The notes beneath the pieces are model-generated. The model saw only the letters and a program-made list of their open reading frames with translations, did no database searches and had not been told where the DNA came from. This document shows, piece after piece, positions 27,794 through 46,777 of a stretch of 64,000 nucleotides of DNA. The stretch is taken from NCBI GenBank assembly GCA_016932995.1, contig JAFGBU010000025.1:1-64000 (forward strand), in the 5' to 3' direction. Made by a program: the position numbers and the translations under genes. This DNA comes from Desulfovibrionaceae bacterium. Its GTDB lineage: Bacteria > Desulfobacterota > Desulfovibrionia > Desulfovibrionales > Desulfovibrionaceae. Position 1 is the stretch's first letter. Each line of letters starts with the position of its first letter.

Positions 27794-29956
27794 TCAGCCC
27801 CCTGATTCCCCGATGGGAAGCTCCAAGGTGAACACGCTGCCCTTGCCCGGCTCGGAGCGGGCCCAGATCGCGCCGCCATAGTGCTCCACTATCTGCCGGC
27901 AGATGGCCAGGCCCAGGCCCGTGCCCCTGGGCTTGCCCTCGGTCGCGTCCCCGCCGTGGGCCTGGTGGAACTTGTCGAACACCCTGTCCAGGTCCTTTTC
28001 GGCTATGCCCACGCCGGTGTCCGAGACCCGGACCCGCAGGCGGCCGTTGTCCGCGACCCGCGCCTCGACCCGGACCCGGCCGGCCTTGGTGAACTTGACC
28101 GCGTTGCCCAGCAGGTTGGACAAGACCTGGCCGATGCGCTCGGGGTCGCCCTTGAACCGGGGCAGGTCCCCGGGCGCGTCGATCTCAAGGCCGAGGTCCG
28201 GCTTGTTGGCCAACTCCTCGCCTAGCCCGCGCGCGGCCTGCCGGATCACCTCGGCCAGGTCCAGATCCTGGACCCGCCACTCGGCCTGGCCGGACTCGAT
28301 CTTGTTCAGGTCCAGGACCTCGTTGATCAGCCTGGTCAGGCGCTCGCCCTCCTGCTCGATTATCCTCAGGTTGTAGCGGATGCGCAGGTCCATCTTCTCC
28401 AGGGACGGATCGCCCGAGGACAACGGGTTGAAGAAGCGCTGGAAGTCCCTGTAGATGAGCTTGGCGAAGCCCAAAATCGAGGTCAGCGGGGTGCGCAATT
28501 CGTGGGACACCGAGGACAGAAACTCGGACTTCATCCTGTCCAGGTCCATGAGCCTGCGGTTGGCCTCCTCCAGGCTCAGGGTCTTGTTCCTCAGGTCCTC
28601 GGTGCGGGCCTCGACCATGGCCTCCAGGTTCCGGTTCAGGGTCTCGAGCTCCTTCTTGCGTTGCTCGTCCTTGTCCCTGGCCTGCCCGAGCCTGTGGACC
28701 ATGATGTTGAAGTGGCGGGCCAAAAAGCCCATCTCGCCCCGAAAGTCCTCTTTGGCCCTGATCTCCAGGTCGCCTCCGCTGACCTCCCGGCAGACGCGCA
28801 CCAGGTCCTGGATGGGCCGCAAGAACCTCTGCAGCACCAAGGCCACGGCAAAGGCCAGGATGACGATGGCCCCCAGGGCCGGCAGGAAGATGCTCCAGAT
28901 GAAGCGCGGCAGGGCGGCCTCTATCTCCTGCTCAAAGGCCGTGGCCGCCACGTACCAGCCCGTGACCGGGTCCCGGGTGACCCAGGACACGGCCGGGCCG
29001 GCCAGGCCCCCGGAGTCGCCGGGCAACGCGGCCTCGTAGACGCACTTGTTCTCGCCCCACGGCCTCACGGCCGCGGCCTTGAGCATGGAGCACAGGGTCT
29101 CATCCGAGCCCGGCGGCCTGAGGTCCCGGAAGCTCTCTCCGGAGTTGACCGGGTGCCCGATGTAGGTGCAGTCCTCGTCAAAGCAGAACACGTAGCCGGT
29201 CTCCATTATGCCCATCTCGCCCAGCCTGGCGCGCAGGTCGTTGAGCCTGATCCGGCGCCTCTCGGCCATGGCCTCCTCTATGTCGCCCATGGGCATGGCC
29301 GCGCAGACCACCACGTCCCAGGGCCGGTAGTACCTGGCCGCGGCGAGCCTGAAGCCCCGGCCCTCGGACGGGTCCTCGGCCCAGGCGTACAGGGTGAAGA
29401 CCGTCTCGTTGCGCCCGGCCGCCCGGGCCCGATCGGACAGGTCCTTGAACACGGTCTCGCCCTCGCAGTTCCTGAAGCCCGCGACCGGCCGGTCCCTGAA
29501 CTCCGGCCGCGGGTGGATCACCAGCCTCAGGTCCGCGTCCAGGACAAAGACCGGCACCCTGGGCCCGACCACCCGGTTCAGACGCCGAAACGACGTGCTC
29601 CGGGCCTCGGCAAGGGGCCTGCCCCGCTCCCGCACCTCCTCCTCGTAGGAGTCAAGGAGGCTTATGACGTGAACGACCAGACCATTCAGGAGCTCCTTGC
29701 GCTGCTCGCGGAAAAACACGCGCAGCCTGTCCTCCCTGATCCTGTACCCGGCCACCAGCTCCACGGCGCTGCGCAGGACGGAGTAGGCCGAATCATCCTG
29801 AAGCCGGTAGACCATGCGCCTGCCGATGGACCTGGAGACCAGCATGGCCGCGACCGCGGTCGCGACCGCCAGCAGGATGGTGGCCAACAGAAAGCGCCAC
29901 AATGTGCTCTTGGGGATGATGGAGCCGCCGCTCCCCGGGGACGCGCTGAAGGACAC
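27794..29956 (-). CDS. Cache-domain sensor histidine kinase
   Basis: This 720-residue membrane kinase begins at a GTG with GGAGA upstream, four bases after the binding-protein gene. Two membrane helices (about 20-40 and 350-372) enclose a large periplasmic double-Cache-type sensor; the second part contains GYVFCFDEDCTYIGHP and a conserved GWYVAAT near its end. Then follow HAMP, a coiled coil and the kinase core with His485 in SSVSHELRTPLTS, N box NLLGNAVKFTKAG and GTGLGLAICRQIV. The tight pairing with a periplasmic binding protein suggests ligand sensing through or together with that protein. Confidence 0.9.
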   Translation of the reverse strand: MSFSASPGSGGSIIPKSTLWRFLLATILLAVATAVAAMLVSRSIGRRMVYRLQDDSAYSVLRSAVELVAGYRIREDRLRVFFREQRKELLNGLVVHVISLLDSYEEEVRERGRPLAEARSTSFRRLNRVVGPRVPVFVLDADLRLVIHPRPEFRDRPVAGFRNCEGETVFKDLSDRARAAGRNETVFTLYAWAEDPSEGRGFRLAAARYYRPWDVVVCAAMPMGDIEEAMAERRRIRLNDLRARLGEMGIMETGYVFCFDEDCTYIGHPVNSGESFRDLRPPGSDETLCSMLKAAAVRPWGENKCVYEAALPGDSGGLAGPAVSWVTRDPVTGWYVAATAFEQEIEAALPRFIWSIFLPALGAIVILAFAVALVLQRFLRPIQDLVRVCREVSGGDLEIRAKEDFRGEMGFLARHFNIMVHRLGQARDKDEQRKKELETLNRNLEAMVEARTEDLRNKTLSLEEANRRLMDLDRMKSEFLSSVSHELRTPLTSILGFAKLIYRDFQRFFNPLSSGDPSLEKMDLRIRYNLRIIEQEGERLTRLINEVLDLNKIESGQAEWRVQDLDLAEVIRQAARGLGEELANKPDLGLEIDAPGDLPRFKGDPERIGQVLSNLLGNAVKFTKAGRVRVEARVADNGRLRVRVSDTGVGIAEKDLDRVFDKFHQAHGGDATEGKPRGTGLGLAICRQIVEHYGGAIWARSEPGKGSVFTLELPIGESGG

Positions 29957-31338: not shown

Positions 31339-32745
31339 TTAGGTTCTGGATACGCCGTGACGCTTCATGAGCGCATACAGCCTGGCCCTGGACAGGCCGG
31401 ACATGGCGCAGGCCTCCCCGACCCTGCCCGAGGCCCTGGACATGAGCTCGCGCAGATAGCGCTCCTCCACGCGGGCCAGGACCTCGGTCCTGTAGTCCTT
31501 GAGCATGGGGAACCCGTTGCCGCCGAAGTCCGGGGCCGGGTCCTCGGGGTTGTGCCCGGGGCCCTCCTGAAGGGCCGAGCGCGCCAGCTTTATCCTGATG
31601 TCCATGGGCAGATGCTTCTGAAAGAGGATCATGTCCCTGCCCGCGGTGGACAGGGAGCTCTCCACGCAGTTGATGAGCTCGCGCACGTTGCCCGGCCAGT
31701 CGTAGGCCATGAGGCCGTCCAGATACTCGGATGAGACCCTCTTCATGGGCAGGTCCATGAGCCGGCAGTACTTGCCCAGGAAGTGCTGGAACAGCTTCCT
31801 GACGTCCCTGCCCCGGTCCCTGAGGCTGGGCAGGCTGACGGTCACGGTCCTCAGGCGGAAGAGCAGGTCCCGGCGGAACCCGCCGGCCTCGACCATGTCC
31901 TCCAGGTCCTTGTTGGTCGCGGCCACGAGCCTGAAGTCGCTGCCGACCTCGTGGGCCCCGCCCACGGGCCGGAAGGCGCGGGTCTGCAGGACCCGCAAAA
32001 AGGTCTTCTGCACGGACAGGGGCAGTTCTCCGACCTCGTCCAGGAACAGGGTGCCGTTGTCCGCGAGCTTGATCAGGCCCTCGAACTTGCGGTCCGCGCT
32101 GGTGAACGAGCCCTTCTCGTGGCCGAAGAGGATGCTCTCGGCCAGGTTCTCGGGCAGGGCGGCGCAGTCCACGACCACAAAGGCCTTGTCCCTCCTGTCG
32201 CTGTTGTCGTGGATGGCCCGGGCAAAGAGCTCCTTGCCCGTGCCGGTCTCGCCGGTGATGAGCACGCTGGACTGGGTCTGCGAGGCCTGGCCGATCCGCT
32301 CCAGGCATTCGAGCATCAATCTGCACTCGCCAACGATCCCGCTGCGCTTCAGGGTCATGGGCGGCAGCTCCGGCCGCTTGGTGCGGTGGTACTCCAGGGC
32401 CCGCTGGACCGGGAGCCGGATCTTGCTCAGGGTCGGCGGCTTGGTGATGTAGCTCCAGGCCCCGCAGCGCACGGCCAGCTCGGCCCCGTCCGGGTCGCCG
32501 CTCCCGGTCAGGATGATGACCTCGGGCGCGGAAAAGCCCTCCTTTATCCTGGGCAGGATGTCCAGACCGTTGCCGTCGGGCAGCCAGACGTCCAGGATGA
32601 CCACGGCGTAGTCCCCGGCCCGGGACATCTCCAGACCGGTCTTCAGGCTGTGCGCGGCCTCGGCCGTAAAGCCCATGCCCTGGATGGCCTCGCACAGGGC
32701 CCGGCACATCATCTTGTCGTCGTCCACGATCAAAATCTTCGACAT
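31339..32745 (-). CDS. AAA+ response regulator with altered sigma-54 contact loop
   Basis: This 468-residue protein has a receiver (Asp52 in VVILDVWLPDG, Lys in YITKPP), an AAA+ domain with GETGTGKELFA and a Fis-like helix-turn-helix (VGEACAMSGLSRARLYALM). The loop normally GAFTGA reads GSFTSA (212-217). The ATG at 32745 overlaps the stop of the upstream hybrid kinase by one base (TGATG), so the pair is translationally coupled. Because the loop keeps Phe and Thr, sigma-54 contact may survive, but it is not the consensus. A GTG just before the ATG is an alternative start. Confidence 0.88.
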   Translation of the reverse strand: MSKILIVDDDKMMCRALCEAIQGMGFTAEAAHSLKTGLEMSRAGDYAVVILDVWLPDGNGLDILPRIKEGFSAPEVIILTGSGDPDGAELAVRCGAWSYITKPPTLSKIRLPVQRALEYHRTKRPELPPMTLKRSGIVGECRLMLECLERIGQASQTQSSVLITGETGTGKELFARAIHDNSDRRDKAFVVVDCAALPENLAESILFGHEKGSFTSADRKFEGLIKLADNGTLFLDEVGELPLSVQKTFLRVLQTRAFRPVGGAHEVGSDFRLVAATNKDLEDMVEAGGFRRDLLFRLRTVTVSLPSLRDRGRDVRKLFQHFLGKYCRLMDLPMKRVSSEYLDGLMAYDWPGNVRELINCVESSLSTAGRDMILFQKHLPMDIRIKLARSALQEGPGHNPEDPAPDFGGNGFPMLKDYRTEVLARVEERYLRELMSRASGRVGEACAMSGLSRARLYALMKRHGVSRT

Positions 32746-34706
32746 CACCGCGCCCCCGCCCGCTCGGCCCGTTGCGAGGCCCTGGCCGTGTCCAGAAGCC
32801 TTCTGATGTTGCCGGCCAGGACGTTCACGGAATAGGGCTTCTTGAGAAACTCGGCCACGCCCATGGCCTTGCCCCGTTCAATGGTCTCGGCCTCGTACCA
32901 GCCCGAGCAGATCATGATCGGCACCCCGGGCCGCAGGGAAAGAAGCCTCTCGGAGAGCTCCAGCCCGGTCATGCCGGGCATGGTCTGGTCCGTGAGCACC
33001 AGGTCGAAGGCCTTGGGGTCGCGGCCGAAGGACTCAAGGGCCGCGGCCCCGCCGGCCCGGGCCTCGACCTCGTAGCCCATGCGCTCCAAGGCCAGCCTGT
33101 TTGCCTCGAGCACTATGAAATCGTCGTCCACCAGGAGGATGCGCTCCAGGCCCTTGGCCAGCAGATCGCCCCTGGCGAACTCCTCGGGCACCTCCATGGG
33201 GTCGGCGGACTTGGGGATGAGCACGTAAAAGGCCGCGCCCTTGCCCTCCTCGCTCTCGACCCTGACCGCGCCCTTGAGGTGCTTGGTGACGATGCTGTGG
33301 ACCACGGTCAGGCCCAGGCCCGTGCCTATGCCCGCCCGCTTGGTGGTGAAGAACGGATCGAATATCTTGCCCATGTCCCTGCCGGCGATGCCGTGGCCGG
33401 TGTCCCTGACCGTGAGCAGGACATACGGCCCCAGGGCGGCCGAGGGAAAGCCGTGACGGCCGCCCTCCCGGATCTCGACCTCCCTGAGGGCGATGGTCAG
33501 GACGCCCCCGTCCGGGCGCATGGCGTGGGCCGCGTTGGTGCACAAGTTCATGATCACCTGGTGGGTCCGGGTCGGGTCGGCCATGATCAGATCGTCCTCG
33601 GCCTCGAACCTCTGCTCGATGCGGATGGTCGCGGGCAGCGAGGGCCGCAGCAGCTTGAGACATTCCCTGACAATGCTCGAAAGCCTGAACGCGACCGGCT
33701 CGTCGTCCTCGCGGCGGTGGCCCAGGTTCAGTATCTGGTTCACCAATGACTTGGCCCTGTTGGCGGCCTCCAGGATGTGCCCGAAGGAGCGCCTGACCGG
33801 CTCGGCCTCGGGCAGGAGGTTCAGGCCGAGCTCGGAGTAGATGATTATCGGGCCCAGGATGTTGTTGAAGTCGTGGGCGATGCCGCTGGACAGGGTGGCG
33901 ATGGCCTCCATCTTCTGGGCCTGGCGCACCTCGCGCTCCAGTATCTCCACGTTGGTCACGTCCCTCCAGATGCCTACGTAGCCCAGGGGCACGCCGTAGC
34001 GCCCCCGGATGGGCGAAACCGTGGCCTGGCAGAGGATGTCCGCGCCGTCCTTCTTGGCGCAGGTCACCCTCCCGGACCAGACCTCGCCCTGGACCATGGC
34101 CTCGGCCATCTCTTGATAACACCTGTTGGCCGCGCCGCCCTTGTACAGGCCGTCCACGCCCTGGCCCTTGATCTCCTCCTGGCTGTAGCCCATGGAGGTC
34201 TCGAAGGCCTGGTTGACATAGCTGATGGTGAACTCGGAATCAAAGATCACGAACGCCTCGCCGGCCTGCTCAATGGCCGAGGCCAGACGCATGCGCTCCT
34301 CCTCGTCCCTCTTGGCGGCGGTGATGTCCCGAATGAACACCGCCACGGCAAAGACCTCCCCGTCCCGGTCCAGCACGGGATTGGCCCGGGCCTCGAGCAC
34401 GTTGCCCGATCCGGTCCGGTCCTCGAACCTGTGGGGCGCCCGGGTCCGGGCGATCTTCTCGATCACCGCCCTGCTCTTCTTGAGCAGGTTGATGCGCAGG
34501 TGGTCGTACAGGCAGGAGCCGACCAGCCCGTCCAGGGGCATGCCCAGACTCTTGGCCATGGCCGTGTTCGCGGCCAGGACCGTTCCGGACAGGTCCATGA
34601 GCAGGGCGTAGTCCGAGGTCGCGTCGAGCAGGGTGCGCAAGCTCCCGTCGCCGGCCCCGGAAACGCCTTTCTGACCAGGCGCGGCATGCTTCTTTACCCC
34701 GGCCAT
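32745..34706 (-). CDS. Soluble PAS-PAS hybrid histidine kinase with C-terminal receiver
   Basis: The ATG at 34706 has AGGAGG six bases upstream and gives 653 residues; the longer frame beyond it has no coding character. There is no membrane segment. Two PAS domains (about 25-135 and 140-255) precede a kinase core with His278 in TLSSGIAHDFNNILGP, N box NLCTNAAHAM and GTGLGLTVVHSI, and a receiver with Asp573 (VLTDQTMPG). It should sense an internal cue (redox, oxygen or a small ligand are common for PAS) and pass phosphate to the coupled AAA+ regulator. Confidence 0.9.
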   Translation of the reverse strand: MAGVKKHAAPGQKGVSGAGDGSLRTLLDATSDYALLMDLSGTVLAANTAMAKSLGMPLDGLVGSCLYDHLRINLLKKSRAVIEKIARTRAPHRFEDRTGSGNVLEARANPVLDRDGEVFAVAVFIRDITAAKRDEEERMRLASAIEQAGEAFVIFDSEFTISYVNQAFETSMGYSQEEIKGQGVDGLYKGGAANRCYQEMAEAMVQGEVWSGRVTCAKKDGADILCQATVSPIRGRYGVPLGYVGIWRDVTNVEILEREVRQAQKMEAIATLSSGIAHDFNNILGPIIIYSELGLNLLPEAEPVRRSFGHILEAANRAKSLVNQILNLGHRREDDEPVAFRLSSIVRECLKLLRPSLPATIRIEQRFEAEDDLIMADPTRTHQVIMNLCTNAAHAMRPDGGVLTIALREVEIREGGRHGFPSAALGPYVLLTVRDTGHGIAGRDMGKIFDPFFTTKRAGIGTGLGLTVVHSIVTKHLKGAVRVESEEGKGAAFYVLIPKSADPMEVPEEFARGDLLAKGLERILLVDDDFIVLEANRLALERMGYEVEARAGGAAALESFGRDPKAFDLVLTDQTMPGMTGLELSERLLSLRPGVPIMICSGWYEAETIERGKAMGVAEFLKKPYSVNVLAGNIRRLLDTARASQRAERAGAR

Positions 34707-34803
34707 TGATTCCTCCTCGCGCAACAGTCGCGGCCCGCAGCGGGTCAAGACGCGGAAGACACGCCCCGATGCCCGCGCGGACCCTGACAAGGCCAGGCGC
34801 AAT

Positions 34804-35653: not shown

Positions 35654-37693
35654 ATGGCCAACAGGATAGGGGTTTACGTCTGCCACTGCGGGACCAACAT
35701 CGCGGGCAAGGTGGACAGCGTGGGCGTGGCCAAGTTCGCCTCGACGCTCAAAAACGTCGTGGTCGGCCGGGACTACAAGTTCATGTGCTCGGACCCGGGC
35801 CAGGAGATGATCATCCGGGACATCAAGGACCTGGGCCTGAACCGGGTGGTCGTGGCCTCGTGCTCGCCCAGGCTGCACGAGAAGACCTTTCAGGGCGCCT
35901 GCCAGCGGGGCGGCCTCAACCCGTTCCTGTTCCAGATGACCTGCATACGCGAGCACTGTTCCTGGGTGACCAAGGACTTTGACGAGGCCACTGAAAAGGC
36001 CAAGCACCTGGTGGCCGCTGCCGTGAGCCGGGTCAACTACCACGCGAAGCTCTATCACCGCGAGGAGAACGTCCACCCCGACGTGCTCGTGGTCGGCGGC
36101 GGCATCGCCGGGATCCAGGCCTCCCTGGACGTGGCCAAGTCCGGGCACAGGGTCCACCTGGTGGAGCGGGACGCGTCCATAGGCGGACACATGGCCCAGT
36201 TCGACAAGACCTTCCCGACCCTGGACTGCGCGGCCTGCATCTCGACCCCGAAGATGGTCGCGGTCTCCCAGGAGCCGAACATCAACCTCATGACCTACAG
36301 CGAGGTCACCGAGGTCAGCGGGTTCGTGGGCAACTACCAGGTCAAGATCAAGCGCAAGCCGCGGTACATCGACGAGACCAAGTGCACGGGCTGCGGCCTG
36401 TGCATGGAGAAGTGCCCCAAGAAGGTGCTCAGCGAGTTCGAGGAAGGCATCAGCATGCGCCGGGCCGTTCACCGCAACTCCCCCCAGGCCGTGCCCAACA
36501 TCCCGGTCATCGACGCCGCGAACTGCCTCAAGCTGACCAAGGACAAGTGCGGCAACTGCGAGAAGTTCTGTCCCTCCGGGGCCATCGACTACACCCAGAC
36601 CGAGACCGAGCTGGAGCTCGATGTCGGGACCATCGTCCTGGCCACGGGCTACGACATCCTCGACCCCACCCCGCTCAAGCAGTACGGCTTCGGCCGCTAT
36701 CCCGAGGTCTACACCGGGCTGCAGTTCGAGCGCCTGAACAACGCCGTGGGCCCCACCGGCGGCAAGATCGTCATGAAGAACGGCCAGCCCCCGGAGAGCG
36801 TGGCCATCATCCACTGCGTGGGCTCCAGGGACAAGAACTACCACGAGTACTGCTCCCGGACCTGCTGCATGTACGCCCTCAAGTACGACCACCTGATCAA
36901 GGACAAGGTCGGGCATCACGTAAAAATCTTCAATTTCTACATTGACATGCGCTGCTTCGGCAAGGGCTACGAGGAGTTCTACCGCCGGGTCCAGGAAGAG
37001 GGCGTGTCCTTCATCCGCGGCCGGCCCGGGGAGATCACCGACCAGGCCCAGACCCCGGAGGAGGAGGGCAAGCTCATCGTGGTCAGCGAGGACACCCTCC
37101 TGGGCCGCCGGATCCGGGTGCCCGTGGACATGGTCATCCTGTGCACGGCCATGGAGCCGCGCAAGGACACTGCCGAGGTGGCCAGGATATTCGGCATCAG
37201 CCAGGGCATGGACGGCTTCTTCCTGGAGGAGCACCCCAAGCTGGGCCCGGTGTCCACGGCCACGGACGGAATCTTCCTGGCCGGCGCCTGCCAGGGGCCC
37301 AAGGACATCCCGGACGCCGTGGCCCACGCCTCGGGCGGGGCGGCCCAGGCCATGGCCCTGGCGGCCAGGGGCAAGGTGAGCATCTCCCCGACCACGTCCT
37401 GGATCAACCCGGACATCTGCATCGGGTGCAAGATGTGCATCGGCCTGTGCGCCTACTCGGCCATCGAGTTCGACGAGCGCAGGGGGGTGTCGGTGATCAA
37501 CGAGGCCATGTGCAAGGGCTGCGGGAGCTGCGCCGGGCACTGCCCGAGCGGGGCGGCCCAGATCAAGCACTTCACGGAAAAGCAGATATTCAACGAGCTT
37601 GACGGCCTGTTGATGGCCGTGCCGCCCGCGCCCCGGGCCAAGGAAGAAGAGGAACCGGTCAAGGCCGAGGACACGGCCGAGGCCGCGGCCTGA
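35654..37693 (+). CDS. hdrA: HdrA-like flavin and iron-sulfur subunit
   Basis: This 679-residue protein is a canonical HdrA: an N-terminal domain with CHCGTNI and ASCSPRLHEKTF, an FAD-binding Rossmann motif VVGGGIAGIQ (147-156), the HdrA-specific cysteines in LDCAACISTPKM (Cys192, Cys195), two inserted ferredoxin clusters (Cys244-247-250-254 and Cys291-299-302-306), and two more [4Fe-4S] motifs near the end (CIGCKMCIGLC, CKGCGSCAGHC). In bifurcating complexes HdrA holds the FAD that splits electron pairs. It begins the cluster and is followed by an MvhD/FlpD gene, so electrons may enter from a partner dehydrogenase or hydrogenase. Confidence 0.93.
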   Translation: MANRIGVYVCHCGTNIAGKVDSVGVAKFASTLKNVVVGRDYKFMCSDPGQEMIIRDIKDLGLNRVVVASCSPRLHEKTFQGACQRGGLNPFLFQMTCIREHCSWVTKDFDEATEKAKHLVAAAVSRVNYHAKLYHREENVHPDVLVVGGGIAGIQASLDVAKSGHRVHLVERDASIGGHMAQFDKTFPTLDCAACISTPKMVAVSQEPNINLMTYSEVTEVSGFVGNYQVKIKRKPRYIDETKCTGCGLCMEKCPKKVLSEFEEGISMRRAVHRNSPQAVPNIPVIDAANCLKLTKDKCGNCEKFCPSGAIDYTQTETELELDVGTIVLATGYDILDPTPLKQYGFGRYPEVYTGLQFERLNNAVGPTGGKIVMKNGQPPESVAIIHCVGSRDKNYHEYCSRTCCMYALKYDHLIKDKVGHHVKIFNFYIDMRCFGKGYEEFYRRVQEEGVSFIRGRPGEITDQAQTPEEEGKLIVVSEDTLLGRRIRVPVDMVILCTAMEPRKDTAEVARIFGISQGMDGFFLEEHPKLGPVSTATDGIFLAGACQGPKDIPDAVAHASGGAAQAMALAARGKVSISPTTSWINPDICIGCKMCIGLCAYSAIEFDERRGVSVINEAMCKGCGSCAGHCPSGAAQIKHFTEKQIFNELDGLLMAVPPAPRAKEEEEPVKAEDTAEAAA

Positions 37694-37718: not shown

Positions 37719-38141
37719 ATGGAAGAATTCGAGCCCACCATCGTCGCCTTTGTCTGCAACTGGTGCACCTACACGGCCGCGGACCTGGCCGGCACGGCCA
37801 GGATGACCCAGTTCCCGAACGTCAGGCTCATCCGCATGATGTGCACCGGCATGGTCGATCCCAAATACGTGATCAAGGCCCTTTTGGCCGGGGCCGACGC
37901 CGTGCTCATCAGCGGCTGCCACCCCGGGGACTGCCACTACATCAACGGCAACTACAAGGCCAGGCGCAGGGTCAAGCTGCTCCAGGAGATACTGACCGGC
38001 TTCGGCATCGACACCCGGCGGGTGAAGCTGACCTGGGTCGGCGCGAGCGAGGGCAACGAGTTTGCCGAGACCGTGAATCATCTGGTGAACGAGATCAGGG
38101 AACTGGGCCCCATCGAGACCAGGGAATTGATGGTCGTCTAA
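37719..38141 (+). CDS. MvhD/FlpD-type [2Fe-2S] electron-transfer subunit
   Basis: This 140-residue protein has the MvhD/FlpD pattern: CNWCTYTAADLAG (Cys13, Cys16), Cys42 in MMCTGMV and SGCHPGDCHY (Cys67, Cys72), which bind a [2Fe-2S] cluster. In Hdr complexes this subunit passes electrons between a hydrogenase or formate dehydrogenase and HdrA. CAGGAGG precedes the ATG 25 bases behind hdrA. It is complete for the family and carries Cys, not selenocysteine, at the motif positions. Confidence 0.92.
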   Translation: MEEFEPTIVAFVCNWCTYTAADLAGTARMTQFPNVRLIRMMCTGMVDPKYVIKALLAGADAVLISGCHPGDCHYINGNYKARRRVKLLQEILTGFGIDTRRVKLTWVGASEGNEFAETVNHLVNEIRELGPIETRELMVV

Positions 38142-38177: not shown

Positions 38178-39323
38178 ATGGCAACCACAGCGAAAATCGA
38201 GGTCCGGGACAAGAACCCCGTGGCCGCGTTGCAGACCTTTTTGGCCCAGGTCCTGGAGGACGAGTACGTGGCCGGCGTGCTGGCCCCCAGGCACCTGAAC
38301 GACAACGGGGCGCTCATGCCCACACTGGTCACCGACCCGGCCATGCTCGACCGGGTCGATCCCCTGGCCCCGGCCTTTCCGTTCAACGCGGCCAAGACCC
38401 TGGTCAAGCTGACCAACGGCGAGATGGTCAACAAGGTCGCCGCGGTGCTCAAGCCGTGCGAGATCAGGGCCTTCGTGGAGCTGGTCAAGCTCAACCAGGG
38501 CAACATGGACAACGCCCTGCTCATAGGCGTCGACTGCCTCGGGTCCTTCGGCAACACCGAGTACCTGAACTACGTCAAGGACGCTGACCCCATCGCCTCG
38601 AGCCAGGAGTTCGCCAGGGCCGCCCTGGCCGGGGAAGAGTCCCCGGGCGGGACCCCGATAGCCAAGGCCTGCATGGCCTGCGAGCATCCCTCCGCGGTCC
38701 AGGCGGACCTGAGCATCGGACTGGTGGGCCTGGACATCGACGACCACCTGGTGGTCTCGGCCCACACCGCCAGGGGCGAGGGCCTGCTCTCCAGGCTGGG
38801 CCTGCCGGACGTGGCCGAGGCCCCGTCCAGGGCCAAGGCCATGGCCGAACTGGTGAAAAAGCGCACGGCCTTCCGGGACAAGATGTTCGAGGAGACAAAC
38901 GAGGCCACGGCGAGCGTGGAAAAGCTCGCCCGGTACCTGTCCGGGTGCGTGAACTGCTACAACTGCAGGGTGGCCTGTCCGGTCTGCTACTGCAAGGAAT
39001 GCGTCTTCGTCACCGACGTCTTCGACCACAAGCCCTGGCAGTACCTGGATTGGGCCGGGAACAAGGGCATGCTCAAGATGCCCACGGACACGGTCTTCTA
39101 CCACCTGACCAGGCTGGCGCACATGAGCACGGCCTGCGTGGGCTGCGGCCAGTGCTCCAACGCCTGCCCCAACGACATCCCGGTCATGGAGCTGTTCAGG
39201 ACCGTGGCCGCGCGCACCCAGGCGGCCTTCGGATACGAGGCCGGCAAGAGCACGGACGACGCGCCGCCCCTGTCGGTCTTCCAGGAGAAGGAGTTCTCCG
39301 AGGTCACCGGGGGCGTGGACTAG
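38178..39323 (+). CDS. FrhB/FdhB-type iron-sulfur oxidoreductase subunit
   Basis: This 381-residue protein resembles the beta subunit of F420-hydrogenases and formate dehydrogenases: VLKPCEIRAFVELVKLNQ and GVDCLGSFG in the N-terminal half. A cysteine-dense stretch SGCVNCYNCRVACPVCYC (Cys257 onward) and a CVGCGQCSNACP motif (Cys320-323-326-330) can hold two [4Fe-4S] clusters. It may connect the Hdr complex to NAD(P)H, ferredoxin or a formate-type donor. GGGGAGG precedes the ATG. The electron donor cannot be decided from the sequence; the catalytic molybdenum/tungsten subunit of a formate dehydrogenase is not in the window. Confidence 0.8.
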   Translation: MATTAKIEVRDKNPVAALQTFLAQVLEDEYVAGVLAPRHLNDNGALMPTLVTDPAMLDRVDPLAPAFPFNAAKTLVKLTNGEMVNKVAAVLKPCEIRAFVELVKLNQGNMDNALLIGVDCLGSFGNTEYLNYVKDADPIASSQEFARAALAGEESPGGTPIAKACMACEHPSAVQADLSIGLVGLDIDDHLVVSAHTARGEGLLSRLGLPDVAEAPSRAKAMAELVKKRTAFRDKMFEETNEATASVEKLARYLSGCVNCYNCRVACPVCYCKECVFVTDVFDHKPWQYLDWAGNKGMLKMPTDTVFYHLTRLAHMSTACVGCGQCSNACPNDIPVMELFRTVAARTQAAFGYEAGKSTDDAPPLSVFQEKEFSEVTGGVD

Positions 39324-39380: not shown

Positions 39381-42300
39381 ATGAAAAAGACATACGGAGC
39401 CCTGGTGGTCGGGGCCGGAGTCGGCGGGATCAGGGCCGCCCTGGACCTGGCCGAGACCGGACAGAGCGTGGCGCTCATAGACAAGAAGCCGAACATCGGC
39501 GGCATCCTGACCCAACTGGACTACCAGTTCCCGAACGACCACTGCGGCATGTGCAAGATGCTGCCCCTGACCGAGAGGGACGGCTCCTCGCAGTTCTGCA
39601 TGCGCAAGGGCCTGTTCCACCGGAACATCGACATAATGCTCTCGACCGAGGTCACGGCCCTGGAAGGCGAGCCCGGCAAGTTCATGGTCACCCTGCGCAA
39701 GCGCTCGGCCTTTGTGGACCCGAACAAGTGCATCGGCTGCGGCAAGTGCTCCGAGGTCTGCCCGGTCAAGGTGAAGAGCGACTTCAACGCCGGGCTGACC
39801 AAGCGCTCCGCGATCTATCTGCCCGTGCCCCACAACATCCCCAACCACTACGTGGTGGACCTGGACAACTGCCTGCGCTGCTGGCAGTGCTACAACGCCT
39901 GCCCCACCGGGGCCATAGACTTCAAGTTCGAGGAGCGCCAGGGCTTCCACATCCTGGTCGCCGATTCCGACCCCAAGACCTTCGAGGACATGAAGGACTG
40001 GCTCCAGGACCAGAACTTCCCCCTGCGCCACGTGTTCGACGGCGACGCGGCCGTGGACGCGCTCGCGGACCAGTCCCGGCAGGTCCGCATCCTGTTCCTG
40101 GACATGGGCCTGCCCGGCTCGGACCCGGAAAAGGTCCTGCGCCGCGGCCTGGAGCTGAACCCGGACCTGCACGTGGTGCTCATGGCCCAGCCCGACCAGG
40201 AGCAGGCCGCCAGGGAGCTGGCCGGCCAGGGGGCCAAGGACGTGCTCCTCAAGCCCTTTGAGCCCAAGCGCTTCGTGCCCTGGCTGGACAAGCTCTACAT
40301 GCGCATGATGTCCGACGAGACCCTGGACCTCGACGTGGGCGCGGTGATCCTGGCCGGGGGCTTCGAGTGCTACGACCCCGGCGAGGTCGGGGACGTCCTG
40401 GGCTACGGCCGCGAGCCGGCCGTGGTCACCTCGGTGGAGTTCGAGCGCATGTGCAGCGGCACCGGCCCGAGCAACGCCAAGCTGATCAGGCCCGGGGACA
40501 ACAAGCCGATCAAGAAGATCGCCTGGCTCCAGTGCGTCGGCTCCCGGGACCTCAAGAAGAAGGCCGACTACTGCTCGTCGGTCTGCTGCATGATCTCGAT
40601 CAAGGAGGCCCTGCTGGCCAAGAAGCTGACCAAGGGCGAGGCCGAGACGACCATCTTCTACATGGACATGCGCACCTTCGGCAAGGAGTACGAGCGCTAC
40701 CGCCAGAACGCCGAGGCAAATGACGGGGTCAAGTTCGTGAACGCCAGGATCCACTCCGTGGTCCCCGCGGACCAGACCTCGGGCAGCAAGGACATCAAGG
40801 TCCTGTACCTGGACGAGGCCGGCCGGCTCCAGGAGGAGGTCTTCGACCTCCTGGTCCTGGCCGTGGGCGCCAGGCCGCCCGTCGGGACCAAGGAGCTGGC
40901 CGAGGCCCTGGGCATAGAGACCAACGAGTGGGGCTACTGCAAGACCCGCTACTTCACCCCGTCCAGGACCAGCGCCTACGGCATATTCGCGGCCGGCTCC
41001 TACAACGGGCCCAAGGACATCGCCGAGACCCTGATCCAGTCCGGGGCCGCGGCCCTGGAGGCCTCGCGGATCATCACCATCTACGCCCCGCTCACCGAGC
41101 GCACGCCCGAGCCCCAGCCCGAGTACCGCAACGTGTCCCGGGAGACGCCCAAGATACTCATCGCCCTGTGCACCTCCTGCCCCATACTGGAGCAGACCGT
41201 GGACATGGACTCCCTGGTCGCCAGGCTCGGCGGCCTGGCCTCGGTGGCCCAGGTGGCCAAGATCGGCAGCGCCTGCACCAAGCCCGGCTGGGAGGAGATC
41301 GAGGCCCTGGCCGACAAGCATTCGCCCAACCGGATACTGATCGGGGCCTGCCAGCCCTACGCCTACATCCCCAAGCTCAGGGAGCTGGGCCAGACCATCG
41401 GCCTGAACCCGGCGCTCATGGACGTGGTGGACATCTTCACGCCCACGGCCGCCCGCCAGGGCGAGGACAAGGGGGCCGTGGAGCGCGAGGTCTTCTCGGC
41501 CCTGTCCATGGCCTCGGTCCGGCTCCTGGGCGCGGACCCGACTCCCCTGCCCCCGGCCACCCAGGTCACCCGCAAGGCCCTGGTGGTCGGCGGCGGCCTG
41601 GCCGGCATGACCGCGGCCATGGGCATCGCGGACCACGGCTACGCCGTGAGCCTGGTCGAGGAGCAGGAGACCCTGGGCGGCCAGGCCATGAACATCCGCT
41701 ACACCCTGAACGACGAGGACCCGGTCAAGTTCATGGAGGACCTGATAGATTCGGTCCAAAAGCACCCCAACATCACGGTCTACAAGGACGCCCGGGTGGT
41801 CTTGTCCTCGGGCCGGGCCGGCCGGTTCACCAGCGTCATCGCCACGGACCAGGGCGCGGTGTCCTTTGACCACGGCGCCACCGTGCTGGCCACGGGCGGC
41901 CGCGAGGCCAACGTCTACGACTACGGGTTCAGGGTCCACAAGTGCGTGATGACCCAGCGCGAGCTGGAGGACCAGCTGGCCAGCGGCGCCCTGGACACCT
42001 CGGCCCTGTCCGGGGTGGCCATGATCCAGTGCTGGCGGTCCAGGGACGAGGGACGCAGCTACTGCAGCCGGGTGTGCTGCGGCCAGGCCCTGAAGAACCT
42101 GCTCATGCTCAAGAAGCGCAACCCCGAGCTGCCCGTGTACGTGTTCTACCGGGACATCATGACCTACGGCTTCGCCGAGACGTACTACACCCAGGCCCGC
42201 AAGGCCGGGGCCGTGTTCATCCGCTACGACCTGAAGGACAAGCCCAAGGTCGAGTTCGAGGACAAGGTCCCGGTGATCACGGCCAGGGACCCGATCCTGC

Positions 42301-42881
42301 AGCGGGAGATCCAGGTCCGGCCGAGCCTGCTGGTCCTGTCCGGGGGCATAGAGCCCAACGAGGTGAGCGATCTCCAGGAGATGTTCGGGGTCGAGGTCAA
42401 CGCGGACGGCTTCTTCCAGGAGGCGGAGTACAAGTGGCGGCCCGTGGACTTCCTCAAGCAGAGGCTGTTCATGTGCGGGCTGGCCAGGGCCCCGGGAAAC
42501 ATGAGCGAGACCATCGCCAGCGCCAAGGCCGCGGCCCAGCGGGCGGTGCGCATCTTAAGCGAGATGAGACTGACCAGCGGCAGCGTCATCGCCGAGGTCA
42601 GGCACAGCCTGTGCTCGCTGTGCGGCAAGTGCATAAGCGTCTGCCCCTACGGGGCCAGGAGCCTGGACCTGGAACAGGACATGATCCTGGTCGACGAGCT
42701 GCTCTGCCAGGGCTGCGGGGCCTGCGCCGCGGTCTGCCCCAACAGCGCCAGCCTGCTCAGGGGCTTCCGGGACCAGCAGGTCCTCTCGGTCATCGACGCC
42801 GCCCTGAACGGGCTGAACTACGGCCGGGCCCGGGCGGCGGAACCCGAAACAGCGACCCAAACCGAGGGCGGTGAGTCATGA
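39381..42881 (+). CDS. Double HdrA-like protein with an inserted response-regulator receiver domain
   Basis: This 1166-residue protein holds two HdrA-like modules. Module one begins with FAD motif VVGAGVGGIRAA, has the cysteines in HCGMCKM, ferredoxin motifs CIGCGKCSEVC (Cys117-127) and CLRCWQCYNAC (Cys164-174), and continues at about 308-570. Between the ferredoxin part and that continuation, residues about 189-305 form a CheY-type receiver: ILVADSDPKT, phosphoacceptor Asp241 in ILFLDMGLPG, and Lys291 in VLLKPFEP; the second acidic residue is Ser196 and the strand-four Thr is missing. Module two has an HdrA N-terminal domain (590-690), FAD motif VVGGGLAGMTAA and two ferredoxin motifs near 1078-1119. 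GGAGG precedes the ATG; hdrC overlaps the stop (ATGA). Confidence 0.9.
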   Translation: MKKTYGALVVGAGVGGIRAALDLAETGQSVALIDKKPNIGGILTQLDYQFPNDHCGMCKMLPLTERDGSSQFCMRKGLFHRNIDIMLSTEVTALEGEPGKFMVTLRKRSAFVDPNKCIGCGKCSEVCPVKVKSDFNAGLTKRSAIYLPVPHNIPNHYVVDLDNCLRCWQCYNACPTGAIDFKFEERQGFHILVADSDPKTFEDMKDWLQDQNFPLRHVFDGDAAVDALADQSRQVRILFLDMGLPGSDPEKVLRRGLELNPDLHVVLMAQPDQEQAARELAGQGAKDVLLKPFEPKRFVPWLDKLYMRMMSDETLDLDVGAVILAGGFECYDPGEVGDVLGYGREPAVVTSVEFERMCSGTGPSNAKLIRPGDNKPIKKIAWLQCVGSRDLKKKADYCSSVCCMISIKEALLAKKLTKGEAETTIFYMDMRTFGKEYERYRQNAEANDGVKFVNARIHSVVPADQTSGSKDIKVLYLDEAGRLQEEVFDLLVLAVGARPPVGTKELAEALGIETNEWGYCKTRYFTPSRTSAYGIFAAGSYNGPKDIAETLIQSGAAALEASRIITIYAPLTERTPEPQPEYRNVSRETPKILIALCTSCPILEQTVDMDSLVARLGGLASVAQVAKIGSACTKPGWEEIEALADKHSPNRILIGACQPYAYIPKLRELGQTIGLNPALMDVVDIFTPTAARQGEDKGAVEREVFSALSMASVRLLGADPTPLPPATQVTRKALVVGGGLAGMTAAMGIADHGYAVSLVEEQETLGGQAMNIRYTLNDEDPVKFMEDLIDSVQKHPNITVYKDARVVLSSGRAGRFTSVIATDQGAVSFDHGATVLATGGREANVYDYGFRVHKCVMTQRELEDQLASGALDTSALSGVAMIQCWRSRDEGRSYCSRVCCGQALKNLLMLKKRNPELPVYVFYRDIMTYGFAETYYTQARKAGAVFIRYDLKDKPKVEFEDKVPVITARDPILQREIQVRPSLLVLSGGIEPNEVSDLQEMFGVEVNADGFFQEAEYKWRPVDFLKQRLFMCGLARAPGNMSETIASAKAAAQRAVRILSEMRLTSGSVIAEVRHSLCSLCGKCISVCPYGARSLDLEQDMILVDELLCQGCGACAAVCPNSASLLRGFRDQQVLSVIDAALNGLNYGRARAAEPETATQTEGGES

Positions 42882-43447
42882 GCCAGACAGAGGTCAAGGA
42901 CACCAAGACCAAGAAGGCCGACCTGGAGGCCAGGGCCCTGGCGGATATCCAGGACATGGTCGCCGCGTGCATGCAGTGCGGCACCTGCACCGCGTCCTGC
43001 CCCAACTCGTTCGCCATGGACTACACGCCCAGGCAGATGTGGCGGATGATCATCTTCGGGATGCTCGACGAGGTCCTGAAGAGCAAGACCTTCTGGCTCT
43101 GCTCGGCCTGCTACACGTGCACCCTGCGCTGTCCGCGCGGTCTGCCCCTGACCAGGGCCATGGCCGCGCTCAAGCGCCTGGCCGCGCTCAGGGGCGGGGA
43201 GCAACGCAAGAAGGCCGCCTTTTACAAGGAGTTCATCAACAACGTCCACAAGTACGGCCGGGTCCAGGAAACGGGCCTGATGTTCAGCTACTTCACGACC
43301 ATGATGGACCCGTTTTTGCCCCTGAGCTACGCCCCGCTGGGGCTGAAGATGCTCGGCAAGGGCAAGCTCCACCCGCCCTCCGGGGCGCACAAGGGCAAGC
43401 TCGACGCCATTTTCGACAAGGTAAAGCAAATGGAAGGCACGACATGA
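42878..43447 (+). CDS. hdrC: HdrC-like iron-sulfur subunit
   Basis: This 189-residue protein has the two [4Fe-4S] motifs of HdrC, CMQCGTCTASC (Cys31-34-37-41) and CSACYTCTLRC (Cys75-78-81-85), followed by a helical C-terminal region without membrane helices. HdrC relays electrons from HdrA to HdrB. Its ATG overlaps the stop of the double HdrA gene (ATGA), and its own stop overlaps the hdrB start in the same way, so the three are translated as a unit. The lack of membrane segments points to a soluble HdrABC-type rather than a Qmo-type complex. Confidence 0.92.
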   Translation: MSQTEVKDTKTKKADLEARALADIQDMVAACMQCGTCTASCPNSFAMDYTPRQMWRMIIFGMLDEVLKSKTFWLCSACYTCTLRCPRGLPLTRAMAALKRLAALRGGEQRKKAAFYKEFINNVHKYGRVQETGLMFSYFTTMMDPFLPLSYAPLGLKMLGKGKLHPPSGAHKGKLDAIFDKVKQMEGTT

Positions 43448-44421
43448 GATACGCCTACTACCCCGGGTGTTCGCTGACCGAAAGCGCAGTCGAGTTCGAC
43501 GTCTCCACCAGGGCGCTCATGACCGCCCTGGGGGCCGAGCTGGAGGAGGTCCCGGACTGGACCTGCTGCGGCGCAAGCGCGGTGGAGGCGGTCAGCAGGC
43601 TTCTGACCTACGCCCTGCCGGCCAGGAACCTGGCCCTGTCCGAACGGGACCTGCCGGGCCTGGACATGCTCATCCCGTGCAGCGCCTGCTACCTGAACCA
43701 CCTGCGGGTGGAGCGGGAGGTCCTCGGGGAGAAGGGGCTGCGGGGCGAGATGGACGAGATTCTGGCCGCGGACGGCCTCAAGTACGAAGGCACGGTCAAG
43801 GTCAGGCACCTTCTGGACGTGCTGACCAACGACATCGAGCTCAAGGCGGTAAAGGAAAAGGTCGGCCATGCCCTGCGCGGCATGGTCCTGGCCCCCTACT
43901 ACGGCTGCCAGATACTCAGGCCGTACAAGGTCTTCGACGATCCGGAGCGGCCCAAGACCATGGACCCGCTGATCAAGGCCACGGGCGCCGAGCCCCTGGA
44001 CTGGAGCATGGGCTCCAAGTGCTGCGGCGCCTCGCTCATGGCGACCAAGAAGGAGGTCGCCCTGGAGTCGGTGGCCGCGATCCTGGCCGCGGCCAAGGAC
44101 GCGGACGCCATCGTAACCGTCTGTCCCATGTGCCAGATGAACCTGGAGGCCTACCAAAAGCAGGCCCTGCGGGTAAACGGCCGGGCCAGGCCCATCTCCA
44201 TCGTCTACCTGCCGCAGGTCCTGGGCCTGGCCTTCGGGCTCTCGGAAAAGGACGTGCTTCTTGACAAAAACATGACCGTGACCGAAAGGTTCCTAAACAG
44301 GCTCAGGAATCCTGAGCCTCCGGAAGAGCCGGAGGCCAAGGACGCGCCCGCTGCCGAAAAACCGGCCAAATCCCAAGGCAAAACCGAACCGGCCAGGGAA
44401 CAAGGCACCCCGGCGCAGTGA
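43444..44421 (+). CDS. hdrB: HdrB-like CCG-domain subunit
   Basis: This 325-residue protein has two CCG motifs that bind the noncubane [4Fe-4S] clusters of the HdrB active site: Cys9, Cys41-Cys42-Gly, Cys79 and Cys82 in the first; Cys155, Cys193-Cys194-Gly, Cys227 and Cys230 in the second (CPMCQMN). In methanogens this subunit reduces the CoM-CoB heterodisulfide; in sulfate reducers the disulfide substrate is not settled. The last 45 residues are a low-complexity tail rich in Pro, Glu, Lys and Ala, beyond the normal family end. The frame begins at ATG 43444, overlapping hdrC. Confidence 0.93.
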   Translation: MRYAYYPGCSLTESAVEFDVSTRALMTALGAELEEVPDWTCCGASAVEAVSRLLTYALPARNLALSERDLPGLDMLIPCSACYLNHLRVEREVLGEKGLRGEMDEILAADGLKYEGTVKVRHLLDVLTNDIELKAVKEKVGHALRGMVLAPYYGCQILRPYKVFDDPERPKTMDPLIKATGAEPLDWSMGSKCCGASLMATKKEVALESVAAILAAAKDADAIVTVCPMCQMNLEAYQKQALRVNGRARPISIVYLPQVLGLAFGLSEKDVLLDKNMTVTERFLNRLRNPEPPEEPEAKDAPAAEKPAKSQGKTEPAREQGTPAQ

Positions 44422-44455: not shown

Positions 44456-45382
44456 ATGTTCAAGGACATCGTTTTAGCGGTCACCCCATCGGAGATCTGT
44501 GAATGCGCTGCCGACGCGGCCTTCTCCTTCGCCCAGAGGTTCGAGGCCAAGCTGTACATCGTGCATGTGGCCGGCATCCAGCAGGGCTGGGGGGCCATCG
44601 AGCACCTGGCCGCCTCCGGCGAAACCGAACGCATCAGGCAACAGATCGAGGAGCACTACGCCGAGAAGCTCAAGGGCGTCCCCGACTACAAGGTCATCGT
44701 GGTCCCGGGCATGCCCCACGCCGAGATTCTCAGGCTGGCCAGGAAGTTCAACTCGGACCTGATCATCATGGGCCCGCACACCAAGGAATACGCGGAAAAG
44801 CGCTCCAAGATGTGGGGCATGACCGGCAGCACCCTGGAGCGCGTGAGCCAGAAGTCGCGCTGCCCGGTGATGATCGTCACCAGGGCCACGCCCTACGGCG
44901 AACAGTCCTTCGCCAACATCGTCGTGGCCACGGACTTCTCCGAGGCCGCCGAATGCGCCGTGAGCTACGGCAGCCAGCTGGCCAGACAGTACAAGGCCAA
45001 CCTGAACGTCTTCCACGTCCTGGACATCGAGGGCCTGGCCGGGCAGATGGCTCAAACCGAGATCGACCGGCGGGTGAACGAGACCAAGCAGAGGATGGAG
45101 AACGAGTTCGGCGAAAGGCTCAGCGGGGTCAAGAACTGCACCTACGACTGCTGGGAGGGCAAGCCGGCCATGGAGATCCTCAAGATCGCCAGGATGAAGG
45201 AGGCCGACCTCATCCTCATGGCCCACCACTCCAAGGAGACCGACCCGGAAAAGGCCTTCCTCGGGTCCACGGTCACCCAGGTGGCCCTGAACGCCGCCTG
45301 CCCGACCATGAGCATCAACCGGTACTTCGACCTGCGCTGCGGGCTGATGTACGACCAGACCGGCGAGGCCAAGGCGGTCTAG
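44456..45382 (+). CDS. Tandem universal stress protein
   Basis: This 308-residue protein has two Usp domains (about 1-150 and 155-290). Each ends with the family's nucleotide-binding type pattern (GMTGSTLERVSQKSRCPVMIV and FLGSTVTQVALNAACPTMSI). AGGAGG precedes the ATG at 44456; a GTG 30 bases earlier is not supported by a ribosome-binding site. It sits inside the Hdr cluster between hdrB and the HdrD-like gene, so it may bind ATP or AMP and tune the complex, or protect it during starvation. The role is inferred from position only. Confidence 0.88.
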   Translation: MFKDIVLAVTPSEICECAADAAFSFAQRFEAKLYIVHVAGIQQGWGAIEHLAASGETERIRQQIEEHYAEKLKGVPDYKVIVVPGMPHAEILRLARKFNSDLIIMGPHTKEYAEKRSKMWGMTGSTLERVSQKSRCPVMIVTRATPYGEQSFANIVVATDFSEAAECAVSYGSQLARQYKANLNVFHVLDIEGLAGQMAQTEIDRRVNETKQRMENEFGERLSGVKNCTYDCWEGKPAMEILKIARMKEADLILMAHHSKETDPEKAFLGSTVTQVALNAACPTMSINRYFDLRCGLMYDQTGEAKAV

Positions 45383-45472: not shown

Positions 45473-46777
45473 ATGTCCGAAGCAGCCGTTGCAGTCAAGA
45501 CGGTCGACCTCAAGGGGGGGACCTTCAAGCATCAAATCATGGACCTTCTGCCCGACGGCGGCAACCTGAACCTGTGCCTGACCTGCGGCCTGTGCTCCTC
45601 GGGCTGCCCGGCCACGGGACTGGAGGACATGGACCCCAGGAAGTTCCTGCGCATGCTGGTCCTGGGCCTGGACGAGGAGGCGGCCAAGTTGCCCTGGGTC
45701 TGGATGTGCACCATGTGCCAGCGCTGCATCTACGTCTGCCCCATGCAGATCAACATCCCGGAGATCGTCTACCGGGCGCGCGAGACCTGGCCCAGGGAGG
45801 AGCGGCCCAAGGGCATCCGCGGCTCCTGCGACCAGGCCCTGAACACGCCGACCAACAGCGCCATGGGCGCAAAGCCGGACGATTTCAAGTTCGTGGTCGA
45901 GGACGTGGTCGAGGAAATCAGGGAGGCCCAGGAGTGCTGCAAGGACCTGGTCGTGCCCATGAACAAGAAGGGCGCGCACTTCTTCCTGAACCAGAACTCC
46001 CGCGAGCCGGTGACCGAGCCGGACGAGATGGTCCCGCTGTGGAAGATACTGAACCTGGTGGGCGCGGACTGGACCTACTCCGACGTGGGCTGGGGGGCGG
46101 AGAACTACTGCATGTTCCTGGCCGACTCCGAGGCCTGGGAAAAAATCGTCCGCAACAAGATGGAGACGGTCGAAAGCCTGAAATGCAAGGTCTGGCTGAA
46201 TACGGAGTGAGGCCACGAGTTCTACGCAGTCCGGGCCGGACTGCAAAGGTTCGACATCAAGACCAGCTTCAAGCTGGACAGCATCATAAGGTATTACGCC
46301 CAGTGGATCAGGGAGGGCAAGCTGCCGGTCAACTCGGACTGGAACAAGGACCTGAAGATCACCTTCACGGTCCAGGACCCCTGCCAGCTGGTGCGCAAGT
46401 CCTTGGGCGACCCGGTCGCCGAGGACCTGAGGTTCGTGGTCAAGTCCGTGGTCGGGGAGGAGAACTTCATCGACATGTACCCGAACAGGTCCAACAACTA
46501 CTGCTGCGGGGGCGGGGGCGGATTCCTCCAGTCCGGGTACACCGAGGCCAGGAGGGCCTACGGCAAGCGCAAGTTCGACCAGATCATGGCCACCGGCGCA
46601 AAGTACTGCATCGCGCCTTGCCATAACTGCCACTCCCAGATACATGATCTGTCAGAACACTTCGAGGGGGGCTTCCCCGTGGTCCACCTGTGGACGCTGA
46701 TCTGCCTGTCCCTGGGCATCCTCGGGGAGAACGAAAGAGAGTATCTCGGCCCTGACCTGGCCGAGGTCGGACTTTAA
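45473..46777 (+). CDS. HdrD-like iron-sulfur protein, probable selenoprotein (in-frame UGA)
   Basis: Reading through a TGA at 46208-46210 gives one 434-residue protein. The first part has two [4Fe-4S] motifs (Cys35-38-41-45 and Cys79-82-85-89). Residue 246 is encoded by UGA within NTE-U-GHEFY, where HdrD/CCG relatives commonly have Cys (ECGH). The frame then stays open for 188 codons and contains a full second CCG motif: Cys304, Cys344-Cys345-Gly, Cys383 and Cys386. The separate piece after the UGA has no ribosome-binding site or early start. A stem-loop at 46226-46244 fits a bacterial SECIS element. HdrD-type subunits reduce disulfides or pass electrons from lactate-type dehydrogenases. AGGAGG precedes the ATG. 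Confidence 0.82.
46226..46244 (+). promoter_or_regulatory. Candidate bacterial SECIS stem-loop
   Basis: GCAGTCCG pairs with CGGACTGC around GGC (or seven pairs with a GGGCC loop). The stem begins 16 bases after the UGA and the loop about 23 bases after it, with a G at the start of the loop, as bacterial SECIS elements require. Confidence 0.6.

Follow-up and report, generated by a model that had tools for sequence, protein, structure and literature searches.

Methanogen HdrA (5ODC, 7BKB, 8RVU) combines an N-terminal Fe-S domain, an FAD module marked by the residues E356 and K409, an inserted ferredoxin domain and a C-terminal ferredoxin. A Glu/Lys pair of the E356/K409 type has been proposed as the mark of a bifurcating HdrA (PMC12054007), and cryo-EM work on HdrA complexes has described the inserted ferredoxin-like domain as a partner-binding site and anticipated electron exit, as well as a mobile arm that provides conformational gating (PMC12350162). 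Chains with two thioredoxin-reductase-like FAD units are known from the type II (double) HdrA of methane-metabolizing archaea, the clusters of which also contain HdrBC, MvhD and FdhB (PMC12054007), and from the fused ANME HdrA3/4 (PMC9012536), and complementary patterns of Cys197 and the N-terminal domain in fused HdrAs have been interpreted as intramolecular heterodimers (PMC9012536). The insertion of a foreign domain into HdrA likewise has a precedent, the GltD domain of HdrL/type III HdrA (PMC2702500, PMC12054007).

The window analysed here, a stretch of 64,000 nucleotides from a Desulfovibrionaceae bacterium (contig JAFGBU010000025.1, positions 1 to 64,000), encodes a double HdrA of 1166 residues (39381-42881, + strand) that contains a response-regulator receiver (REC) domain. 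This REC-HdrA shares with methanogen HdrA all the parts named above, at 23-27% identity over ~650 columns of a fold comparison, and differs from it in consisting of two fused units over which those parts are distributed and in carrying a 127-residue receiver at the position between HdrA residues 313 and 314. With type II and fused ANME HdrA it shares the two FAD units per chain, and its locus shares with the type II clusters the genes for HdrBC, MvhD and FdhB; the order of the units, however, is reversed, the Cys197 unit coming first and the N-terminal Fe-S domain standing in the second unit. As in HdrL/type III HdrA a foreign domain is inserted, a receiver in place of GltD. Like receivers of the NtrC/AtoC/ZraR type, the intact HdrA receivers of related genomes keep the full active site, but the HdrA receiver lies mid-chain in a flavoprotein, comes without a DNA-binding or known output domain and is degenerate in the window. 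The statement of an initial annotation that no described Hdr subunit is known to carry such an insert agrees with the open-licence papers searched, in which no description of an HdrA with a receiver domain was found; in PMC12054007, a word search located neither receivers nor response regulators.

Architecture of the receiver-containing HdrA

The assignment of the host protein rests on Pfam and NCBIfam matches, on alignment to 5ODC and on full-length homologues that are 57-64% identical to it. The chain opens with the first part of an FAD module (residues 1-103; 39381-39689, all features of the protein being on the + strand), in which phmmer against 5ODC places Cys58 at the position of HdrA Cys197, followed by the inserted ferredoxin domain with two [4Fe-4S] motifs (residues 104-186; 39690-39938), identified by Fer4 matches and aligned to 5ODC 236-313. 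The receiver (residues 189-311; 39945-40313), supported by Pfam, AlphaFold2 and the 5ODC alignment, separates these from the second part of the first FAD module (residues 313-570; 40317-41090). A second HdrA unit (41142-42560) comprises the N-terminal Fe-S domain (C597, C600, C632, C657) and another FAD module, and a C-terminal [4Fe-4S] dicluster ferredoxin domain (residues 1071-1128; 42591-42764; Pfam and 5ODC alignment) closes the protein. Both FAD sites hold residues at the HdrA E356/K409 positions, E355/K408 in the first and E863/K905 in the second, and these are invariant in 28 homologues. According to the 5ODC alignment, unit 1 is devoid of the N-terminal Fe-S domain and unit 2 of the inserted ferredoxin and of a Cys197 equivalent; the inserted ferredoxin, N-terminal Fe-S domain and C-terminal ferredoxin are all present, spread over the two units. 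Because the Cys197 equivalent in unit 1 and the N-terminal-domain cysteines in unit 2 form a complementary pattern, the chain may be its own heterodimer. Since the protein scores 659 bits against the curated NCBIfam HdrA2/HdrA cut-off of 1100, it is regarded as HdrA-like and as no equivalog of methanogen HdrA; the GltD-type domain that characterises type III HdrA/HdrL does not occur among its best Pfam and NCBIfam matches.

The receiver matches PF00072 (Response_reg) over residues 191-298 (39951-40274) with 42.9 bits and E=6.4e-11 when the whole protein is searched against Pfam, above the curated cut-off of 30.2 bits, and with 48.6 bits and E=1e-12 when the segment is searched alone. From an alignment of 28 homologues AlphaFold2 predicts a complete (beta-alpha)5 receiver fold with a pLDDT of ~83-90, in which strands 190-194, 215-218, 235-241, 264-269 and 287-290 alternate with helices 198-209, 221-229, 249-259, 271-281 and 295-311. 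The last of these, the alpha-5/linker (residues 295-311), runs straight into the FAD-module strand 313-324 in the model. In the phmmer comparison with 5ODC chain A (Methanothermococcus HdrA), query residues 4-184 align to 143-313 and residues 312-512 to 314-510; because the two blocks abut in 5ODC, 127 residues are intercalated between adjacent HdrA residues, immediately C-terminal to the inserted ferredoxin domain. The active site is incomplete, the acidic pair (D12/D13) being represented by D195 and S196 (followed by D197) and the strand-four Thr/Ser by A269; the phosphoacceptor D241 and the conserved Lys, K291, are present. Elsewhere in the domain, R255, E258 and F189 are invariant and F213/P214 near-invariant in the first 15 Desulfovibrionales sequences. 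The initial annotation had proposed a complete receiver at residues ~189-305, set between the ferredoxin clusters and the remainder of the first FAD module of a double HdrA, with Asp241 and Lys291 present, Ser196 in place of the second acid and the strand-four Thr lost. Each of these points is borne out by the Pfam match, the predicted fold, the insertion at 5ODC 313/314 and the two FAD modules, with the domain now extending over 189-311.

Distribution and origin of the inserted receiver

A search for the same architecture in other genomes, suggested in the initial annotation, retrieved ~87 distinct relatives from many genomes with a receiver at the identical insertion point. Among a set of 59 relatives, 13 full-length homologues and one truncated one, 57-64% identical, carry the insert, while a second set of double HdrAs (35-39% identical) aligns only beyond residue 310 and has no receiver. 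In a scan of GTDB genomes, 79 of the best 80 of 178 loci yielded a relative with an open frame that runs across the insert, a list that is biased by this choice of the best matches and in which several relatives are cut by contig ends. Of 395 genomes drawn evenly from the phylum, 15 have a REC-HdrA at E<=1e-40, so the family is widespread but patchy. D. autotrophicum hdrA4, which PMC2702500 places beside hdrBC and hdrL, is a candidate further member.

In a tree calculated without the receiver columns, all 76 receiver-bearing rows form one clade (SH-aLRT 100), with the receiver-less double HdrAs outside. This clade splits into a degenerate group of 27 rows (support 100), consisting of Desulfovibrionales and including the window, and an intact group of 49 rows (support 93), made up of Desulfobacterales, Syntrophobacteraceae, other 'Deltaproteobacteria' and one Latescibacterota MAG. 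Cultured species with a receiver of the intact type include Desulfospira joergensenii (L098) and Desulfonema magnum (L091). Scored with an HMM of the degenerate receivers, the HdrA receivers of the intact group reach a median of 79 and a maximum of 90 bits, against a median of 32 for other receivers in the loci; the one overlapping score, 78 bits, belongs to a receiver in a universal stress protein (Usp) that is a close paralogue of the HdrA receiver. These scores are consistent with a common origin of the degenerate and intact HdrA receivers. An intact homologue (L066) shows the same receiver fold as the protein in the window, and its receiver is matched best among response regulators by the AtoC model (E=6e-30). 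Taken together, sequence, fold prediction and tree show that the receiver was inserted once into a double HdrA. Independent insertions in the two groups find no support, given the shared insertion point, the single clade and the preference of the degenerate-receiver HMM for HdrA receivers. That the segment might be a normal part of HdrA, the outcome that would have undone the idea of an insert, is refuted for HdrA in general by its absence from 5ODC and from the receiver-less double HdrAs; within the REC clade it is nonetheless fixed.

Intact and degenerate forms of the receiver

All five catalytic residues (DD, D, T, K) are kept in 57 of 58 distinct intact-group sequences, and the acidic pair in 58 of 58, whereas a full phosphorylation site occurs in 0 of 29 distinct Desulfovibrionales sequences, 12 of which have the phosphoacceptor replaced by Gly or Ser. 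Within the intact group the receivers have a mean pairwise identity of 0.74, nearly that of the first FAD segment (0.77), compared with 0.40 among the degenerate receivers. The alpha-5/linker follows the opposite trend, with 0.38 in the intact and 0.65 in the degenerate group, and the motif WLDKLYMRxxSD is fixed in Desulfovibrionales. Simple Nei-Gojobori pairwise estimates of omega for the receiver lie at 0.04-0.14 in the intact group and at 0.18-0.43, with one pair at 0.85, in the degenerate group. By these sequence measures the receiver is under strong purifying selection in the intact group, and in the degenerate group it is relaxed but mostly still constrained.

Operon context in the window

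The gene for the double HdrA lies in a conserved operon on the + strand, and the order HdrA1 - MvhD - FrhB/FdhB-like - REC-HdrA - HdrC - HdrB recurs in both groups. In the window the operon is headed by a single HdrA (35654-37693; NCBIfam HdrA2, 799 bits; synteny), a plain protein of 679 aa; in the intact-group operon examined this partner contains a GltD-type insert and is of the HdrL/type III kind, and it is comparably long (~1130 aa) in most of the intact group. MvhD/FlpD (37719-38141; PF02662, E=6e-52) and an FrhB/FdhB-like electron-input subunit with Fer4 (38178-39323; PF04432, E=3e-9; synteny) precede the double HdrA, and an HdrC-like protein (42878-43447; Fer4_8, synteny) and an HdrB-like protein with two CCG domains (43444-44421; PF02754, E=4e-21; synteny) follow it. 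HdrB is adjoined by a tandem universal stress protein (44456-45382, +; PF00582, synteny) that is conserved in Desulfovibrionales. Further downstream lies an HdrD-like gene (45473-46777, +; Fer4 and CCG by Pfam) with an in-frame TGA at 46208-46210 in the context NTE(TGA). As the same TGA stands at the identical position in 17 related loci, a conserved selenocysteine is likely in this protein; D. autotrophicum has a known HdrD with selenocysteine (PMC2702500). Since dsrA is present in the genome, the sulfite-reduction machinery may take part on the electron acceptor side. DsrC is represented by just two 28-residue ends in short frames (C2:5-88 and C12:15062-15145), the gene probably having been cut by assembly breaks.

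Divergent from the hdr operon, on the - strand, are an NtrC-type sigma-54 regulator (31339-32748) and a hybrid sensor kinase of PAS-PAS-HisKA-HATPase-REC architecture partnered with it (32745-34709), both identified by Pfam and synteny. In 17 Desulfovibrionales loci a homologue of this regulator is encoded upstream in the opposite orientation, often with a hybrid kinase alongside. The stretch between the divergent regulators and hdrA1 gave one weak and unconvincing minus-strand match to a sigma-54 site, at 35604, and also contains a transposase fragment (PF01527; 35342-35611). Beside the next kinase (27797-29956, -) lie a lone receiver and a periplasmic binding protein. The 'orphan kinases just upstream' of the initial annotation therefore do not hold up, neither of the two being a clear orphan, and control of the window receiver by these upstream kinases is weakened as an idea because they have other regulators beside them. 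Single-domain receivers are found at 15622-16005 and at 27233-27616, the second with genes for a Cache-HAMP kinase and a periplasmic binding protein nearby. The open reading frame at 18125-20758, considered as a further kinase, encodes a PPDK_N/PEP-utilising protein instead.

Sensor kinases and receiver copies beside the operon

Kinases were detected with a home-made HMM over all open frames, in loci with enough flanking sequence. Of the intact loci, 21 of 37 have a co-directional sensor kinase that begins no more than 3.5 kb downstream of REC-HdrA, against 0 of 16 degenerate ones (Fisher p=4e-5, a figure that counts related loci as independent, kinase linkage being shared within subclades). 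Within 5 kb the counts are 21 of 33 and 1 of 15, the one distal kinase of the degenerate group lying 4.2 kb downstream (L045). The density of kinases in the intact-group flanks, 0.085 per kb, is about fivefold that of HATPases genome-wide (0.018 per kb in 14 of these genomes). Typically, a HAMP-PAS-PAS-HisKA-HATPase kinase (~760 aa) is followed by a REC-HATPase protein (~400 aa), and in one locus (L092) the kinase starts 4 bp past the end of the REC-HdrA coding sequence. A kinase in this 3.5-kb interval is absent from more than 40% of the intact loci with sufficient flank, and in several loci (L083, L089, L101) an NtrC-type regulator is an obvious alternative partner for the kinase.

Sister copies of the receiver occur in Usp genes. 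Two loci encode Usp-REC-Usp proteins adjoining the operon (L122, 10836-12149; L123, 14177-15493), in which the receiver between the two Usp domains is 70% and 77% identical, respectively, to the HdrA receiver of its own locus, compared with ~53-56% for the nearest receivers outside HdrA and Usp. This closeness in sequence suggests that the receiver module was copied within the operon and would respond to the same signal in Usp and HdrA. An uncontrolled search at E<=1e-60 recovered Usp-REC fusions elsewhere in 0 of 198 genomes of the phylum. In one further genome a 441-aa frame ~5 kb from REC-HdrA gives a second partial match (G390 contig C57, 86141-86611, profile positions 69-224), possibly another receiver copy of the REC-HdrA kind. 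In Desulfovibrionales, a stand-alone canonical receiver of 130 aa follows the Usp gene in L052 (15729-16118) and L058 (15824-16213), and similar open frames are present in L053, L055, L056 and L060; such a receiver might have taken over the switch in this subclade with a degenerate HdrA receiver.

Proposed mechanism and alternative explanations

A CheY/NtrC-type receiver was inserted into a double HdrA between the ferredoxin domain, the anticipated electron exit, and part b of the first FAD module (residues 313-570). Placed there, with alpha-5 as a lever, it could move the exit relative to the FAD. In its intact, ancestral form it would be phosphorylated by a sensor kinase, often encoded beside the operon; the alpha-5 helix, continuous into the first FAD-module strand, would transmit the change, and the ferredoxin exit would shift relative to the FAD such that bifurcation by the HdrA-MvhD-FdhB-HdrBC complex may be switched or redirected. 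In Desulfovibrionales the active site is gone or damaged and the fold and fixed linker are kept, from which we infer a structural or docking pseudo-receiver; this would not be phosphorylated, its rigidified alpha-5 linker holding the ferredoxin domain or a partner, and the operon would probably be controlled transcriptionally via the divergently encoded HK-NtrC pair. We regard it as likely that kinase-controlled HdrA is the ancestral state and that it decayed in this manner in Desulfovibrionales. The evidence also leans, if only slightly, towards a fuller version, a response regulator with a bifurcating flavoprotein as its output, in which the kinase phosphorylates HdrA directly and gates ferredoxin exit in many sulfate reducers, the module was copied into the neighbouring Usp, and Desulfovibrionales lost the switch and kept the fold as a rigid element. 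The comparative evidence assigns the two readings offered in the initial annotation to different branches of the clade. Gating by a histidine kinase is, from the 57/58 complete sites, the selection on the domain and the linked kinases, well supported if not proven for relatives of the Desulfobacterales/Syntrophobacteraceae type, and poorly supported for the window's own lineage, with 0/29 complete sites, the phosphoacceptor lost in 12/29 and no kinase within 3.5 kb downstream in 16 loci; a docking or structural pseudo-receiver fits the window lineage better.

The receiver could instead be a docking or spacer module in every member, never a phospho-switch, that positions the ferredoxin exit or binds a partner subunit. 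The retention of the fold without the active site in the window lineage is in keeping with this, as is the resemblance of R255, E258, F189 and F213/P214 to a contact surface, but 57 of 58 intact sites and an omega of 0.04-0.14 exceed what docking alone requires, and kinases adjoin the operon, so that we consider it unlikely. It is less probable still that the window receiver continues to act as a switch, its active site relaxed and S196 standing in for the second acid: D195, D241, K291 and the fold are kept, compatible with weak phosphorylation, yet the second acid and Thr/Ser are lost, D241 is missing in 12 of 29 relatives, and no linked kinase lies within 3.5 kb downstream in the lineage. 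The pairing of a HAMP-PAS-PAS-HisKA-HATPase kinase with a REC-HATPase protein downstream, the NtrC-type regulators in several loci and upstream in Desulfovibrionales and the sister receiver in Usp would also suit a phosphate sink or relay partner of these proteins, the complex acting as sensor or scaffold and the output lying elsewhere, such as in NtrC-type transcription. Insertion in the middle of a flavoprotein, with alpha-5 continuous into the FAD module, would be an odd site for a mere sink, and this role appears very improbable. An artefact of annotation or assembly, or a chance fusion in a single genome, is scarcely credible for an insert found in an open frame and under purifying selection in ~87 distinct sequences.

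Implications for sulfate reducers

Control of electron bifurcation is usually ascribed to redox conditions, to the supply of partners and to gene expression. If the proposed kinase control is correct, a phosphorylatable receiver between ferredoxin exit and FAD would place a central energy-conserving reaction of sulfate reducers under direct and fast two-component control, and the gating of bifurcation would gain a simple testable handle in phosphorylation or in a change of the Asp. The REC-HdrA clade, one branch of which has kept the switch intact and the other has let it decay, would then amount to a natural experiment on the role of the receiver. The intact receivers encoded beside sensor kinases in many relatives suggest direct switching of an energy-conserving enzyme by signalling.
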